A stretch of 64,000 nt of DNA, taken from NCBI GenBank assembly GCA_015066385.1, contig SVOJ01000003.1, forward strand, positions 62,001-126,000. The letters run 5' to 3'. Shown piece after piece: positions 1,613-8,287 of the stretch. Below the pieces are notes generated by a model that was not told the DNA's origin, searched no databases, and was given only the letters and a program-made list of their open reading frames with translations. Source of the stretch: Oscillospiraceae bacterium (GTDB lineage: Bacteria; Bacillota; Clostridia; Oscillospirales; Acutalibacteraceae). Each line of letters begins with the position of its first letter. The first letter of the stretch is position 1. The translations under genes and the position numbers were made by a program.

Positions 1613-2839
1613 ATGACTGTTTTTGAAGAACTCAAAGCAAGAGGTTTGATTGCGCAGACAACAGATGAAGAAAAAATCAAGGATCTTATCACCAACGAAA
1701 AGATTCGTTTCTATATCGGTTTTGATCCCACGGCAGACAGCCTTCATGTCGGCCATTTTGTACAGGTCATGGTTATGGCACACATGCAGAGAGCGGGCCA
1801 TACTCCTATCGCACTGTTCGGTGGCGGCACGGGCATGGTCGGTGACCCTTCGGGCAAGACCGATATGAGAAAAATGCTCACCCGTGAAACCATCGATCAT
1901 AACATTGAATGCTTCCGCAAGCAGATGTCCCGTCTTGTTGACTTCTCTGACGGTAAAGCTGTCATGGTCAACAATGCAGACTGGTTGTTGAATCTCAACT
2001 ACATAAACTTCATGCGCGAAATCGGTGTTCATTTTTCCGTCAACCGTATGCTTGCCGCTGAATGCTACAAGCAGAGAATGGAAAAAGGTCTTACTTTCTT
2101 TGAAATGAACTACATGATCATGCAAAGCTATGACTTCCTGCATCTTGCACGCACACAGAATTGTATTATGCAACTCGGCGGCGATGATCAGTGGAGCAAT
2201 ATCATCGGCGGTATTGAGCTCAATCGTCGTTGTGACGGCAGGGAAGTCTACGGCATGACCTTCAATCTGCTTCTTACAAGTGAAGGTAAGAAGATGGGGA
2301 AGACCGAAGGCGGCGCCGTGTGGCTTGATCCCGAAAAGACCTCTCCGTATGAATTCTATCAGTACTGGAGAAATGTCGATGATGCCGATGTTATTAAGTG
2401 CCTCAAGATGCTGACCTTCGTTTCTCTTGAAGAAATTGCAGAGTACGAAAAATGCACCGGCAGTGAACTCAATGCGGTCAAGGAAAGACTTGCTTACGAA
2501 GTCACAAAACTCATTCACGGTGAAGAAGAAGCCGAAAAGGCAAGAGCGACCGCAAAGGCTTTGTTCTCCAATAATGTTGATGTGTCCACTATGCCGAGTT
2601 CTGCGATCAGTGAAACTGATTTTATTGACGGCGGTATTCAGTTGACTGCACTTCTTGCGGCTACCAAACTTGCCCCTTCCAAAGGGGAAGCAAGAAGACT
2701 CATTGAGCAGGGCGGCATTTCTGTTGATGATGAAAAAATGACGGCTGTCAATACTGTCATTTCAAAGGATGCTTTTGATAAAGGATATATCGTTGTCAAA
2801 AAAGGTAAGAAAGTTTTCCTGAAAGTTGTTATCGGATAA
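1613..2839 (+). CDS. tyrS: Tyrosyl-tRNA synthetase
   Basis: Class I aminoacyl-tRNA synthetase of 408 aa that charges tRNA-Tyr in the cytoplasm. The Rossmann catalytic core carries the HIGH-type motif HVGH (residues 45-48, in [13 protein letters not shown]), the tyrosine/ATP pocket segment [11 protein letters not shown] and a KMSKS-type loop KMGKT. A C-terminal S4-like RNA-binding domain follows ([19 protein letters not shown]). The start is the ATG at 1613, seven bases after the AGGAGG site; the frame stays open upstream to 1541, but that stretch is T-box leader. Expression is controlled by the tyrosine T-box immediately upstream. Length and motifs are normal for the bacterial TyrRS family. 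Confidence 0.97.
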
Positions 2840-2851
2840 ATTTAATCTGTC

Positions 2852-2880
2852 GGGGTGTCTTCGGACACCCCTTATTTTTT
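2852..2880 (+). terminator. Terminator after tyrS
   Basis: Perfect 8-bp stem GGGGTGTC/GACACCCC closed by a TTCG tetraloop, followed by TTATTTTTT. Confidence 0.9.
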
Positions 2881-2886
2881 TTGCAC

Positions 2887-2920
2887 AAAAAAAAGACTTG
2901 CCCGGAAAGAGCAAGTCTTA
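2887..2920 (-). terminator. Terminator after fhs
   Basis: Read on the minus strand: stem AAGACTTGC/GCAAGTCTT followed by a run of eight T. It ends the guaB-fhs transcript and faces the tyrS terminator. Confidence 0.9.
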
Positions 2921-2934
2921 ATATATTTTTATAA

Positions 2935-4602
2935 TCAGAACAAACCGGAAATAACACCGTTTTCATCCACATCAATTCTTTCAGCGGCAGGTGCTTTCGG
3001 AAGTCCCGGCATGGTCATAATGTCGCCCGTCAGCACAACAATAAAGCCTGCGCCGTTGGAGATTTTGACATTCTTGACCGTGATTTCAAAGTTTTCGGGG
3101 GCACCGAGTTTGGTAGCATCATCCGAAAAACTGTATTGTGTTTTTGCAACACAGATGGGCAATTTGTCAAAACCGAGTTTTGTCAGATTGTCAATCTGTT
3201 TTTTTGCCGCGGGAAGAATGTTGACACCGTTGCCACCGTAAACACGCTTTGCAACTGTTGCAATCTTTTCTTCAATGCTCATATCAAGGTCATAACTGAA
3301 GGAGAAGTCATTTTCTTCTTCACAAAGACGAATCACTTCTTCTGCCAGTTCCTTGCCGCCTTCGCCGCCGTTTGCCCAAACGGTGGAAAGAACGGTGTTA
3401 ACGCCGAGTGCACGGCATTTTTCAATGATGAGATTGATTTCTGCATCCGTGTCGGTCGGAAAACGGTTGACAGCAACCACACAAGGCAGTTTGTAGACAT
3501 TGCGGATGTTGGAAACGTGACGAAGAAGATTGGGAAGACCTTTTTCGAGTGCCTCAAGGTTTTCCGTGCCGAGTTCTGTTTTGGCAAGACCACCGTGCAT
3601 TTTAAGTGCACGAACCGTTGCAACCATAACAACGGCAGACGGTTTCAGGCCTGCATACCTGCACTTGATATCAAAGAACTTCTGTGCGCCGAGATCTGCA
3701 CCGAAGCCTGCTTCCGTAACGGCATAATCGCCCAGTTTCATTGCCATTCTGGTAGCAATGACAGAGTTGCAGCCGTGTGCGATATTTGCAAACGGGCCAC
3801 CATGTACAAAGGCGGGCGTTCCTTCAAGAGTCTGTACAAGATTGGGTTTAAGGGCATCTTTCAGCAATGCTGCCATTGCACCTGCGGCATTCAACTGACC
3901 TGCTGTAACGGGTTCTTCGTTATAAGTATAACCGACAATAATGCGGGAAAGTCTTTCTTTGAGATCTGTGATAGAGGAAGAAAGGCAGAGAACAGCCATG
4001 ATTTCACTTGCAACCGTAATATCGTAGCCATCTTCACGGGGAACACCGTTGATTCTGCCGCCGAGACCGTCGGTTACAAAACGCAACTGTCTGTCGTTCA
4101 TGTCAACACAGCGTTTCCATGTAATTCTTCTGGGGTCAATGTTCAGTGCGTTGCCCTGATAAATGTGGTTGTCAAGCATGGCGGCAAGCAGGTTGTTGGC
4201 TGCGCCGATGGCATGGAAGTCACCTGTGAAATGCAGGTTGATATCTTCCATGGGGATGACCTGCGCCCAACCGCCGCCTGCGGCACCGCCTTTGATGCCG
4301 AACACGGGGCCGAGAGAGGGCTCACGAAGGGCGACAACAACATTTTTGCCGATCTTGCGAAGACCGTCTGCAAGGCCGATGGTGGTTGTTGTTTTGCCTT
4401 CGCCTGCGGGGGTGGGCGTGATGGCGGTAACAAGAATCAGTTTTCCGTCTTTTCTGTCACTTTCTTTAAGTAAAGACAGGTCAACCTTTGCTTTGTTTCT
4501 GCCGTATAATTCAAGATACTTGTCGTCAACGCCTGCGGTTGCGGCAATTTCGGAAATGTGTTTCGGGGTAACGGACTGGGCAATTTCAATATCGGTAAGC
4601 AT
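2935..4602 (-). CDS. fhs: Formate-tetrahydrofolate ligase
   Basis: ATP-dependent ligase (555 aa, usual length) that joins formate to tetrahydrofolate to give 10-formyl-THF, the one-carbon donor for purine synthesis and the entry step of the methyl branch in acetogens. The nucleotide-binding loop [13 protein letters not shown] is at residues 63-74. Other conserved segments include [19 protein letters not shown] and [10 protein letters not shown]-like [17 protein letters not shown]. The ATG at 4602 has GGAGG eight bases upstream. The gene begins 30 bp after the guaB stop with no terminator between, so it is probably read from the guaB promoter. A purine role fits that neighbour. No other Wood-Ljungdahl gene is in the window, so acetogenesis cannot be claimed. 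Confidence 0.96.
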
Positions 4603-4632
4603 CGATGAAACCTCCGTTAAAACTTAATTCGA

Positions 4633-6135
4633 TCAGATCGGTGTGCTTGCATTTTTGAGGGTTACGTCGTGGTATCCGCCTTCAACGATGCTGGTTGCGG
4701 AAACAAGTGTGATTTTTGCATCTCTCTGCAGGTCGGGAATATTTGTAACACCGCAGTTGCACATGGTGGATTTTACTTTATAAAGGCTCTTTGCAACGTT
4801 GTCGCGAAGAGAACCGGCATAGGTGACATAGGAGTCAACACCTTCTTCGAAAGAAAGTTTTGCCTTGCCGCCGAGGTCATATCTCTGCCAGTTGCGGGCA
4901 CGATTGGAGCCTTCGCCCCAATACTCCTTAACATACTGGCCGTTTACAATCAACTTGTTTGTCGGGCTTTCGTCGAAACGGGCAAAATATCTGCCGAGCA
5001 TCATGAAATCAGCACCCATGGCAAGAGCGAGGGTCATGTGGTAGTCGTGTACAATACCGCCGTCTGAGCAAAGCGGAATATAAACGCCGGTTTCTTCAAA
5101 ATATTTATCTCTTGCTGCGGCAACTTCGATAACAGCAGTAGCCTGACCTCTGCCGATACCTTTCTGTTCACGGGTAATGCAGATAGAACCGCCGCCGATG
5201 CCGATCTTGATGAAGTCTGCGCCTGCATCTGCAAGGAAGCGGAAACCGTCCGCATCAACAACGTTACCTGCACCGACTTTTACGCTGTCGCCGTATTTTG
5301 CGCGGATAAAGTCGATTGTGCGTTTCTGCCAGATTGAATAACCTTCGGAAGAGTCGATGCAAAGAACATCAGCACCGGCTTCAACAAGGGCCGGAACACG
5401 CTTTTCATAGTCCATGGTGTTAATACCGGCACCAACCATAAAACGCTTATTTGCATCAAGCATTTCGTTGGGATTTTCTTTGTGACTTGCGTAGTCCTTG
5501 CGGAATACAAAATAAACAAGATTGCCGTTATCATCAACGATCGGCAGAGAATTGAGTTTGTGTTCCCAGATAATGTCATTTGCTTCCTTGAGAGTTGTAG
5601 TCAAGGGAGCGGTGATGAGTTTATCAATGGGGGTCATAAATTCGCAGACCTTTGTTTCGGGAGCCATGCGGCTGACACGGTAGTCGCGGCTTGTGACAAC
5701 ACCAAGCAGTTTGCCGTTAGCTTCGCCGTTGTCTGTCACGGCAACGGTGGAATGGTGGGTCAATTCAAACAGAGAAAGAACGTCTGCAAGGCTGTGATCG
5801 GGAGTCAGGTTGGAGTCGCTGACAACAAATCCTGCTTTGTAATTCTTGACTCTTGCAACCATTGCGGCTTCATCTTCAATGGACTGAGAGCCGTAAATAA
5901 AGGACATACCGCCTTCTTTTGCAAGTGCAATTGCAAGGGTGTCATTTGATACAGACTGCATAATGGCGGAAGTCATCGGAATGTTCAAAGATATAGCGGG
6001 TTCTTCGCCTTTTTTGAATTTGACAAGCGGAGTACGCAAGGAAACATTTGCAGGGATGCAGGTTTCGCTTGTGTAGCCGGGAATAAGAAGATATTCACTG
6101 AAAGTATGCGACGGTTCGTTGTAGTAGTGTGCCAT
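4633..6135 (-). CDS. guaB: IMP dehydrogenase, Tritrichomonas-like type
   Basis: Oxidises IMP to XMP with NAD+, the committed step of GMP synthesis (500 aa). A TIM-barrel catalytic domain is interrupted by two CBS-type repeats (about residues 100-220, with TSRDYR and the [10 protein letters not shown] segment). The active-site loop [18 protein letters not shown] puts the catalytic Cys at residue 319. The mobile flap NWQRYDLGG supplies Arg418-Tyr419, and Asp261, Asp358 and Arg382 are present. These numbers are the ones I remember for the protozoan Tritrichomonas foetus enzyme, and the N-terminus ([17 protein letters not shown]) and the ICITREQKG loop also resemble it, unlike the usual ICTTR loop of B. 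subtilis-type GuaB. The start ATG has GGAGG nearby. First gene of a guaB-fhs unit. Confidence 0.95.
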
Positions 6136-6182
6136 TTACGGTATTCCTCCTCATTATGTATGATAATTTTATATTAACATAC

Positions 6183-6211
6183 ATTATACAATGTTCAATG
6201 CATGAAGTCAA
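6183..6211 (-). promoter_or_regulatory. Sigma-A promoter for guaB-fhs
   Basis: On the minus strand TTGACT (6206-6211) and TATAAT (6183-6188) are 17 bp apart. The promoter lies in the 122-bp gap after the shortened regulator gene. Confidence 0.85.
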
Positions 6212-6257
6212 TCGACACTTTCGGAAAAATAAAAAGATTTTTAGTGTCGGTTTTTAG

Positions 6258-7325
6258 TTATTGCGACTTTTTTCGTCTTCTTGTTCGTCTGATTTGCTGT
6301 TCGAGGCGCCCATCACGAATGAAAGCACTCAGGGCCAGTTGTTCTAATTTTGATGCAGTTTGATTGTAAAGATACATTCTGTCTTTATAATTCTCCATCA
6401 GTGCCGTCGGCAGAACAAGATAACTGATTCGGATTCCGGGAATCAGAAGTTTTGAAAATGTTCCGAGATAGGCGACGCATTTTCCCGCATCAAGTCCTTG
6501 CAGGGACGGCGCAATGTGTCCGGGTTGCAGTTCACTGCCGTAGTCATCTTCTGCAATTATTATATGATTATTCTTTGCAAACTGCAGAAGTTTCATTCTT
6601 TGTGTGATGGGCATGATATGTCCGTTGCAGTCTTCATGAGATGGAAACAGATATAACAATCCGATGTTCTGTTCACGTAGTTCTTGCAAGTTATCCGGCA
6701 AAATGTCATAATGATAAACCGCGGCACCATGATCCTCGAAAACCGCGGCACCTTGTTTGAAAACCGGTCCTGCGACGGCAACATTTGCCGGTTGTCTGCA
6801 AAGTGCATATAACAGATGCAGAAGTGTTTGTGTGCCTGCACCGATCACAATATTTTCAGCGGTGCAGTATACTTCTCTGTTTTTGATCAGATATTCACAA
6901 ACGGCGCTTCTCAGTTCCGGTTCTCCCTGCGGGTGGCCGTACCCGAGCAGTCTGTCTGTGTTGCGAAGTGCACTTTTTAGATATCTTTGCCACAATGCAA
7001 AGTCAAAGTCGGTTGCACTTTCTGAAGCAGAAAATTCAATATCTTCAATTTGATTGAAGTTTCTGTCGTTTTCATTTTCTTTCTGAACGTCTGCAAAATC
7101 GGCAGTGCAGACGTAATAACCGCTTTGCGGCTTGCTTTGCACATAGCCTTCCGCTGTCAGTTGCAGATAGGCGGTTTCAACAGTGGTTTTACTTATTGCC
7201 AGTTCTTGTGCGCAACGTCTGACAGAAGGCAATTTGGTTCCGGCCGGAAATGTTCCGTCAACGATCAATTCCTTAAAATGATTATACAATTGCATATACA
7301 GAGTTGATTGTTTATCTTCGAACAT
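6258..7325 (-). CDS. MocR/PdxR-type regulator, C-terminally shortened
   Basis: GntR-family regulator fused to a fold-type I aminotransferase domain, 355 aa. Residues 1-75 form the winged helix (LYMQLYNHFKELIVDGTFPAGTKLPSVR, then ELAISKTTVETAYLQLTAEGYVQS). From about residue 100 the aminotransferase-like part has the PLP-site segments IAEDDYGSEL and LGTFSKLLIPGIR, where the Lys of FSK would bind PLP. MocR proteins usually run to about 450-480 aa; this one stops after a basic EQQIRRTRRRKKSQ tail and lacks roughly the last 100 residues of the small domain. Only 122 bp separate its stop from guaB, and neither other frame resumes the domain, so the tail has been deleted rather than frameshifted. 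It is divergent from pdxK, which suggests pyridoxal-responsive control. It may be decaying or may still function. Confidence 0.8.
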   Translation of the reverse strand: MFEDKQSTLYMQLYNHFKELIVDGTFPAGTKLPSVRRCAQELAISKTTVETAYLQLTAEGYVQSKPQSGYYVCTADFADVQKENENDRNFNQIEDIEFSASESATDFDFALWQRYLKSALRNTDRLLGYGHPQGEPELRSAVCEYLIKNREVYCTAENIVIGAGTQTLLHLLYALCRQPANVAVAGPVFKQGAAVFEDHGAAVYHYDILPDNLQELREQNIGLLYLFPSHEDCNGHIMPITQRMKLLQFAKNNHIIIAEDDYGSELQPGHIAPSLQGLDAGKCVAYLGTFSKLLIPGIRISYLVLPTALMENYKDRMYLYNQTASKLEQLALSAFIRDGRLEQQIRRTRRRKKSQ

Positions 7326-7346
7326 AAATTAAACCCTTTCAAGTTA

Positions 7347-7396
7347 AACTGACCATGTAAAAAATATTGGTATTGACTATTTATTTAAGGTCAGTT
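7347..7396. promoter_or_regulatory. Inverted repeat, candidate MocR operator, in the divergent region
   Basis: AACTGACC (7347-7354) and GGTCAGTT (7389-7396) form a perfect 8-bp inverted repeat with centres 42 bp apart, about four helical turns. A TTGACT lies between them (7373-7378), and TATAGT (7403-7408) lies after the second arm on the pdxK side. The 24-bp distance between these two boxes is too long for ordinary sigma-A use, which fits an activated or remodelled promoter. Binding by the neighbouring regulator is inference. Confidence 0.5.
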
Positions 7397-7453
7397 CTTG
7401 TGTATAGTATAACTTGCAAAAAATGAAAAATCAAGATACGGAGGATGAAAAAA

Positions 7454-8287
7454 ATGAAAATCAAACGTTGTGCTGCAGTGCATGATATTTCCTGTATCGG
7501 TAAATGCTCCCTGACGGTGGCTTTGCCGGTGTTATCTGCCATGGGAATTGAGGTGGCAAGTGTGCCGACTGCTGTTTTGTCAACCCATACGGCGGGTTTC
7601 AACGGTTATACTTTTCACGATCTGACGGATGAACTTCCGAAAATCACTGCACACTGGAAAAAAGAAAATATTGAACTGGATGCGATTTATACCGGCTATC
7701 TCGGTTCTTTTGCACAGTTGCAGTTTGTATCTGATATGATTGATGATTTTAAAACGGATTCTCTGTGCGTGGTAATTGATCCCGTTATGGCGGACCACGG
7801 CAAGCTGTATACGGGCTTTACCCCTGAATTTGCACTTGAAATGGGAAAACTCTGCGCGAAAGCTGATGTTATTGTTCCCAATCTTACCGAAGCTGCTTTC
7901 ATGCTCGGTGAAGAATATAATGAAAATTATGACAAAGATAGCATCAGAGCCTTGCTTTTGCGGTTGGCGGATTTGGGGGCAAAGAAAGTGGTACTCACCG
8001 GTGTCAGTTATGAGGATGATAAACTCGGCTGTGCAACCTATGATTCACAATCGGGCGAGTTCGGCGAATATTTTACCGAAAAACTGCCCGTAGCCATGCA
8101 TGGAACAGGGGATGTTTACGCTTCTGCTTTTACGGGCGCGTATATGAACGGAAAGTCATTGATTGATGCCGCCGCATCGGCATGTGATTTTACTTGTGCT
8201 TGCATCAAAGCCACTATGGATGATATTGAAAATCATTGGTATTCCGTGAAGTTTGAAAAGTGTCTTCACTTGCTGACAAATAAATAA
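7454..8287 (+). CDS. pdxK: Pyridoxal/pyridoxine kinase
   Basis: Ribokinase-fold kinase of 277 aa that phosphorylates pyridoxal, pyridoxine or pyridoxamine in the vitamin B6 salvage pathway. The N-terminus (AAVHDISCIGKCSLTVALPVL) and the substrate segment VLSTHTAGFNGYTF are typical. The phosphate/ATP-binding end has DPVMADHGKLYTGF, VVLTGVSY and the anion-hole motif HGTGDVYASAF with the catalytic Asp. I chose the ATG at 7454 because GGAGG at 7440-7444 is nine bases before it; the in-frame ATG at 7445 directly touches that site. A MocR/PdxR-type regulator is divergent, and a strong terminator follows. Family members can also act on hydroxymethylpyrimidine, but the sequence pattern fits PdxK best. 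Confidence 0.93.
   Translation: MKIKRCAAVHDISCIGKCSLTVALPVLSAMGIEVASVPTAVLSTHTAGFNGYTFHDLTDELPKITAHWKKENIELDAIYTGYLGSFAQLQFVSDMIDDFKTDSLCVVIDPVMADHGKLYTGFTPEFALEMGKLCAKADVIVPNLTEAAFMLGEEYNENYDKDSIRALLLRLADLGAKKVVLTGVSYEDDKLGCATYDSQSGEFGEYFTEKLPVAMHGTGDVYASAFTGAYMNGKSLIDAAASACDFTCACIKATMDDIENHWYSVKFEKCLHLLTNK

Follow-up and report, generated by a model that had tools for sequence, protein, structure and literature searches.

A Tritrichomonas foetus-type IMP dehydrogenase in an Oscillospiraceae bacterium and its distribution relative to standard GuaB

The IMP dehydrogenase (IMPDH) of Tritrichomonas foetus has been much studied for its mechanism and for the design of parasite-selective inhibitors. 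The enzyme has been solved repeatedly (1ak5, 1me7-1mew, 1pvn, 1lrt), and Lmo0132 of Listeria monocytogenes (8ebc) is a solved bacterial member of the same family. Listeria presumably carries a standard guaB besides Lmo0132. In PMC4342496, the adenine is described as sandwiched between Arg241 and Trp269 in the NAD adenosine subsite of the T. foetus enzyme. The same source defines an inhibitor minimal structural motif (IMSM) of one Ala and one Tyr, and reports that the IMPDHs of V. cholerae and E. coli, with Ser and Leu at the motif positions, resist the compounds. The gene is present in the T. foetus genome, since a RefSeq accession for it (XP_068358496.1) is quoted together with 1MEW in PMC12959148. 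In the literature searched, we found no treatment of a bacterial origin of this gene; the 95-sequence IMPDH/GMPR tree (Figure S4) of PMC2525682 may show it beside bacteria.

We analysed a 64,000-nucleotide stretch of contig SVOJ01000003.1 from an Oscillospiraceae bacterium (hereafter the window), which encodes an IMPDH of 500 residues on the minus strand (Table 1). The top PDB match of this protein was T. foetus IMPDH 1ak5 (801 bits, residues 1-495 on 1-495) and the second was Listeria Lmo0132 (8ebc, 681 bits), whereas the best standard bacterial IMPDH (1vrd) reached 256 bits and human IMPDH1 235 bits. The solved Lmo0132 chain comprises 395 residues, and its alignment omits query residues 103-211, the CBS part; to the Listeria locus (L202), the window protein is 75.7% identical. 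In the NCBIfam search, the window protein scored 951.1 bits against NF005493/PRK07107 (curated cut-off: 585 bits), matching profile positions 1-497 of 502. With the standard GuaB profile TIGR01302 it scored 347.7 bits, which is below the curated cut-off of 481.5 bits. Pfam detected the IMPDH barrel and CBS stretches. We conclude that the enzyme belongs to a bacterial IMPDH family that is already described, curated and represented by solved structures, and no feature separating it from NF005493/PRK07107 was found. Identity as a GMP reductase or GuaB1 was ruled out (191.8 bits versus curated cut-offs such as that of NF052358, 675 bits).

Table 1. Features of the IMPDH locus, in window coordinates
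Feature	Position	Strand	Basis
IMP dehydrogenase, T. foetus type (NF005493/PRK07107), 500 aa	4633..6135	-	ORF, PDB and profile searches, alignment
CBS stretch with the best score (residues 164-214), part of the Bateman domain that is inserted into the barrel	5494..5646	-	Pfam CBS, two stretches; position by arithmetic
Catalytic Cys319 of IMPDH	5179..5181	-	Alignment; position by arithmetic
Arg418-Tyr419, mobile flap of IMPDH	4879..4884	-	Alignment; position by arithmetic
Ser263 of IMPDH (inhibitor-motif Ala in standard GuaB)	5347..5349	-	Alignment; position by arithmetic
Asn460 of IMPDH (inhibitor-motif Tyr in standard GuaB)	4756..4758	-	Alignment; position by arithmetic
Formate-tetrahydrofolate ligase (fhs), 30 bases past the IMPDH stop codon, probably co-transcribed	2935..4602	-	Profile search, gap length
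Promoter-like site TTGACT-17-TATAAT (11 of 12 consensus letters) upstream of the IMPDH gene	6183..6211	-	Consensus match only
Terminator-like hairpin with T run downstream of fhs	2893..2919	-	Consensus match only

A preliminary description of this DNA had pointed to catalytic residues at T. foetus numbers and to collinearity over more than 400 residues without net indel, which it considered unlikely between ordinary bacterial and eukaryotic GuaB proteins; it had not stated the strand. Both claims held. The pairwise alignment with T. foetus IMPDH showed 71% identity and zero internal gaps over residues 1-495, and D261, C319, D358, R382, R418 and Y419 carry the same numbers in both proteins. T321, E431, S263, N460 and W269 are shared as well. 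For comparison, 235 loci yielded 228 near full-length frames, 186 of them distinct; without the window's own gene, these were 168 T. foetus-type proteins (at least 60% identity to the window protein), four actinobacterial ones (45-60%) and 13 standard GuaB proteins (32.7-36.2%). The set of 168 is biased to nearer relatives of the window protein because 80 loci were taken from a best-match list. Counted over residues 5-490 against T. foetus, the window protein had no indel column, and neither had 118 of the 168 relatives (one in 41, two in 9), compared with 25-28 columns in the 13 standard GuaB proteins. The shared numbering is thus not due to chance.

The residue numbers alone were rejected as evidence for the type, since five of the six residues originally cited occur in all 13 standard GuaB proteins. 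D261, C319, D358, R418 and Y419 are therefore markers of IMPDH and not diagnostic of the type; T321, K310 and E431 were likewise found in 13/13. R382, in contrast, was present in 168/168 T. foetus-type proteins and replaced by S, N or G in the standard ones. Trp269 was found in 168/168 T. foetus-type and 0/13 standard proteins and in one of the four actinobacterial proteins (Tyr in the other three). Ser263 was invariant among the 168, and Asn460 was kept in 158 (Ser in nine, Asp in one). The marks of the T. foetus type are hence gap-free alignment, Arg382, Ser263, Asn460 and Trp269.

We also compared the inhibitor site. The Ala/Tyr pair of the IMSM was seen in 12 of the 13 standard GuaB proteins of the alignment, the E. 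coli protein having Ser/Leu, but in 0/168 T. foetus-type and 0/4 actinobacterial proteins. The window protein has Ser263/Asn460 and lacks the motif. K310, R382 and E431 are common to it and T. foetus IMPDH, K310 and E431 being shared with standard GuaB as well. Within the adenosine subsite, Trp269 is kept, but the adenine-stacking Arg241 of T. foetus is Met in the window protein, a residue found in none of the 168 relatives (129 Arg, 25 Leu, 14 Lys). The earlier suggestion that this enzyme would share the protozoan inhibitor profile may thus stand in part: with the IMSM missing but Arg241 changed to Met, it is plausible that its profile would be similar, though not identical, to that of the parasite enzyme. 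For the many gut Clostridia in which the T. foetus type is the sole IMPDH found, we predict that they would be spared by antibacterial IMPDH inhibitors that depend on the Ala/Tyr motif.

The genome from which the window derives (3.17 Mb, 97.38% complete) was searched for a second IMPDH and none was found; the other TIGR01302 match was a stretch of only 255 bases that corresponds to the CBS part of the profile (positions 110-200). With a single IMPDH found, the de novo guanine branch would rest on this enzyme alone. Every catalytic residue named above is present in the protein, and the solved T. foetus enzyme together with PMC2525682 leads us to infer catalysis. The enzyme would oxidise IMP to XMP with NAD+ via a covalent Cys319-XMP intermediate. 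Hydrolysis of this intermediate would involve the flap with Arg418-Tyr419 as well as the Thr321/Glu431 pathway, and GMP synthase would convert XMP to GMP. Standard GuaB has a barrel with a CBS pair and catalytic residues in common with the window protein and presumably catalyses the same reaction. Two above-cut-off matches to the GMP synthase C-terminal family were noted in this genome (G000:C22:3185-4120 and G000:C52:104340-105278).

Unlike the T. foetus gene, the window gene is bacterial and adjoins fhs. No minus-strand terminator-like site was detected in the 30-base gap between the two genes. In the region 2700-7400, ten promoter-like sites were found versus 6.2 expected in shuffles, the site before the IMPDH gene being the best of the ten, and seven terminator-like sites versus 5.6 expected; within about 1.5 sd, neither count was above the shuffles. 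We therefore infer the two-gene transcript from site placement and the short gap: IMPDH and fhs are probably transcribed together from their own promoter, and fhs would provide 10-formyl-THF for purine synthesis. Among the loci of 80 relatives, some of which end at contig ends, fhs lay directly 3' of the IMPDH gene in seven, so the pairing is local and not a family trait.

We then examined the distribution of the two IMPDH types. Of 398 genomes drawn evenly from the phylum, 53 were above the NF005493 cut-off, of which 11 were also above that of TIGR01302 and 42 below it. Among 100 genomes of the window's family (each at least 90% complete), 53 had standard GuaB (TIGR01302), 37 had the T. foetus type (NF005493), none had both and 10 had neither. 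If the types were independent, 19.6 of the 100 genomes would be expected to carry both, and the chance of zero is 1.5e-18 when relatedness is ignored. Within this sample of the window's family, the T. foetus type and standard GuaB thus exclude each other. Mutual exclusion is not a general rule, however, since in family f15 the T. foetus type occurred in 14 of the 45 genomes searched, six of which also had a standard match. Eight of the ten genomes below both cut-offs are 1.0-1.6 Mb in size; these ten may rely on salvage of guanine or xanthine.

An RpoB tree of the window's family was built from 97 of these genomes; of the remaining three, one had no match and two had only partial ones, and for G439 one of two matches was used. 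On this tree of a single marker, on which parsimony cannot separate gain from loss, the T. foetus type versus the rest needs at least 21 changes, nine of which are required even when only starred branches are considered. With shuffled labels the mean was 28.7 changes, and 2/500 shuffles were as low as 21, which shows that the label is mildly clustered.

Outside the Bacillota, plasmid-collection records contained the T. foetus type in Parabacteroides (67.8% identity to T. foetus) and, with about 48-53% identity, also in Streptomyces, Embleya and Mycolicibacterium. The type is thus seen in three bacterial phyla, Bacillota, Bacteroidota and Actinomycetota. Two records with a T. foetus-type IMPDH (L204 and L205) are labelled as plasmids of Monoglobus and Parabacteroides distasonis, with strain names TSDC17.2, and are either true plasmids or parts of chromosomes under a wrong name. 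When viral contigs were scanned with the T. foetus protein, no relative was found. Three phage records (OR846902, OR848463 and MT835737, labelled Listeria phage or fecal bacteriophage) contain T. foetus-type IMPDH genes with 72-76% identity to the window protein; these genes may represent host DNA that was assembled into the records.

Taken together, we are confident that the gene encodes a working IMPDH of the T. foetus type, that it is the sole IMPDH found in its genome and that this type alternates with standard GuaB in the family; catalysis, the operon and horizontal spread are the parts to be read as probable. The T. foetus type is a separate family that has probably spread horizontally and of which T. 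foetus carries one member. Our main additions to what is known of it are its role as the sole IMPDH found in this genome and many relatives, the exclusion in the sampled family and the lack of the inhibitor motif in all members examined. The exclusion inside a single family offers a natural example of how an essential enzyme is replaced. As close kin are the sole IMPDH found in many gut Clostridia, some gut bacteria may likewise be sensitive to inhibitors of T. foetus IMPDH. More tentatively, and with somewhat more doubt than conviction, we propose that the two IMPDHs, with an identity of about 35%, behave like exchangeable alleles for a single essential step, swapped often by horizontal transfer in the window's family and never found together there (0/100), though able to coexist elsewhere. 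The T. foetus type, with an inhibitor pocket distinct from the standard one in every member examined, would also have crossed into a eukaryotic parasite, and natural cofactor-site inhibitors could drive the swaps.

To place these proteins, we used a careful tree of 78 rows, consisting of T. foetus, the window protein, 71 other T. foetus-type proteins (thinned at 84% identity except for rows named beforehand) and five standard GuaB proteins (E. coli, Bacteroides and three Bacillota; B. subtilis itself is no row). T. foetus was the sole eukaryotic row; the search for eukaryotes covered the PDB, and classical eukaryotic IMPDHs were compared by bit score. The T. foetus type, including T. foetus and the Listeria member, split from standard GuaB with support 100/100. 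The window protein fell into a clade of 20 rows (100/98). T. foetus was placed outside this clade, as sister (93/93) to 15 rows comprising Parabacteroides distasonis, four Actinomycetota and Bacillota of groups f15, f30, f93 and f95. A reduced tree without the Actinomycetota and standard rows, in which the bootstrap was not settled, gave T. foetus the same position (94/89).

The preliminary description had attributed the T. foetus gene to a gut Clostridia-like donor and expected T. foetus to nest inside a Clostridia clade with the window protein. Its grouping with the bacterial family was confirmed, but the nesting was not recovered in the best tree. Joining T. foetus to the window's clade was 18.1 log units worse and was not rejected by the AU test (p 0.273); making the bacterial rows a clade without T. 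foetus was 38.5 log-likelihood units worse and was not rejected either (p 0.146). The trees are therefore compatible with more than one donor and direction. In further genomes searched around the best-scoring groups, identity to T. foetus did not exceed 74%. A gut Clostridia lineage near this bacterium as the source of the T. foetus gene is doubtful, although the idea has some merit: T. foetus lies within a family that is common among gut Clostridia (of 554 relatives, 80 loci were kept), identities to it reach 72-74% in rows such as those of Intestinimonas (L074) and Ca. Howiella (L079), and the AU test did not reject its union with the window's clade. Against it, the best tree puts T. foetus beside Parabacteroides, Actinomycetota and other Bacillota, Listeria with 71.9% identity is no further from T. 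foetus than the Clostridia, and the phyla other than Bacillota are represented by five T. foetus-type records.

Less likely still is an old dual family, in which ancestors had both types, lineages later lost either of them and transfer played a small part. The genomes with both types in the phylum sample (11/53) and in f15 (6/14) would fit this scenario, as would change counts that are blind to gain versus loss, whereas the absence of such genomes among the 100 of the window's family would not. A five-row branch of the IMPDH tree (f38 twice, f58, the window's family f1 and Subdoligranulum) was supported by 100/86, and by 99/91 in the reduced tree. This branch joins groups that share only the phylum and therefore speaks for transfer between them. 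Another cross-class join, L118 with L097, had support 100/87 in the 78-row tree and was absent from the reduced tree.

We consider it very unlikely that the gene passed from a parabasalid to bacteria or that T. foetus is sister to all bacterial members; the AU test retains a bacterial clade without T. foetus, but only at the likelihood cost given above, and the family occurs in three bacterial phyla as opposed to one eukaryotic row from a PDB search. Finally, the idea that the window protein is an ordinary standard GuaB with coincidental T. foetus numbering has virtually nothing left to commend it beyond the five residues common to all 13 standard proteins, as the profile cut-offs, the identities, the indel columns and the 100/100 split refute it; placement relative to standard GuaB in a tree was the preliminary description's own criterion.

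Minor observations concern the surroundings of the IMPDH genes. In the window, an Rfam search gave no riboswitch before the IMPDH gene and a T-box leader at 1336-1570 (+; 120.6 bits) as the only RNA match. In 19 other loci (18 with the T. foetus type and L142 with standard GuaB), it gave one ZTP riboswitch and six tRNAs only. The ZMP/ZTP riboswitch (L129:1350-1434, minus strand) lies in a locus with a T. foetus-type IMPDH gene, and fits a purine/folate setting. The frame listed from 1541, behind the T-box of the window, looks like a tyrosyl-tRNA synthetase when inspected by eye. Because the GTG start given for this frame falls within the T-box, the real start of the putative gene is probably further in. 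A MocR/PdxR-like regulator (6258-7325, minus strand), whose match ends at profile position 358/448 and whose aminotransferase part seems shortened, is divergent to a pyridoxamine kinase gene (7445-8287, plus strand).
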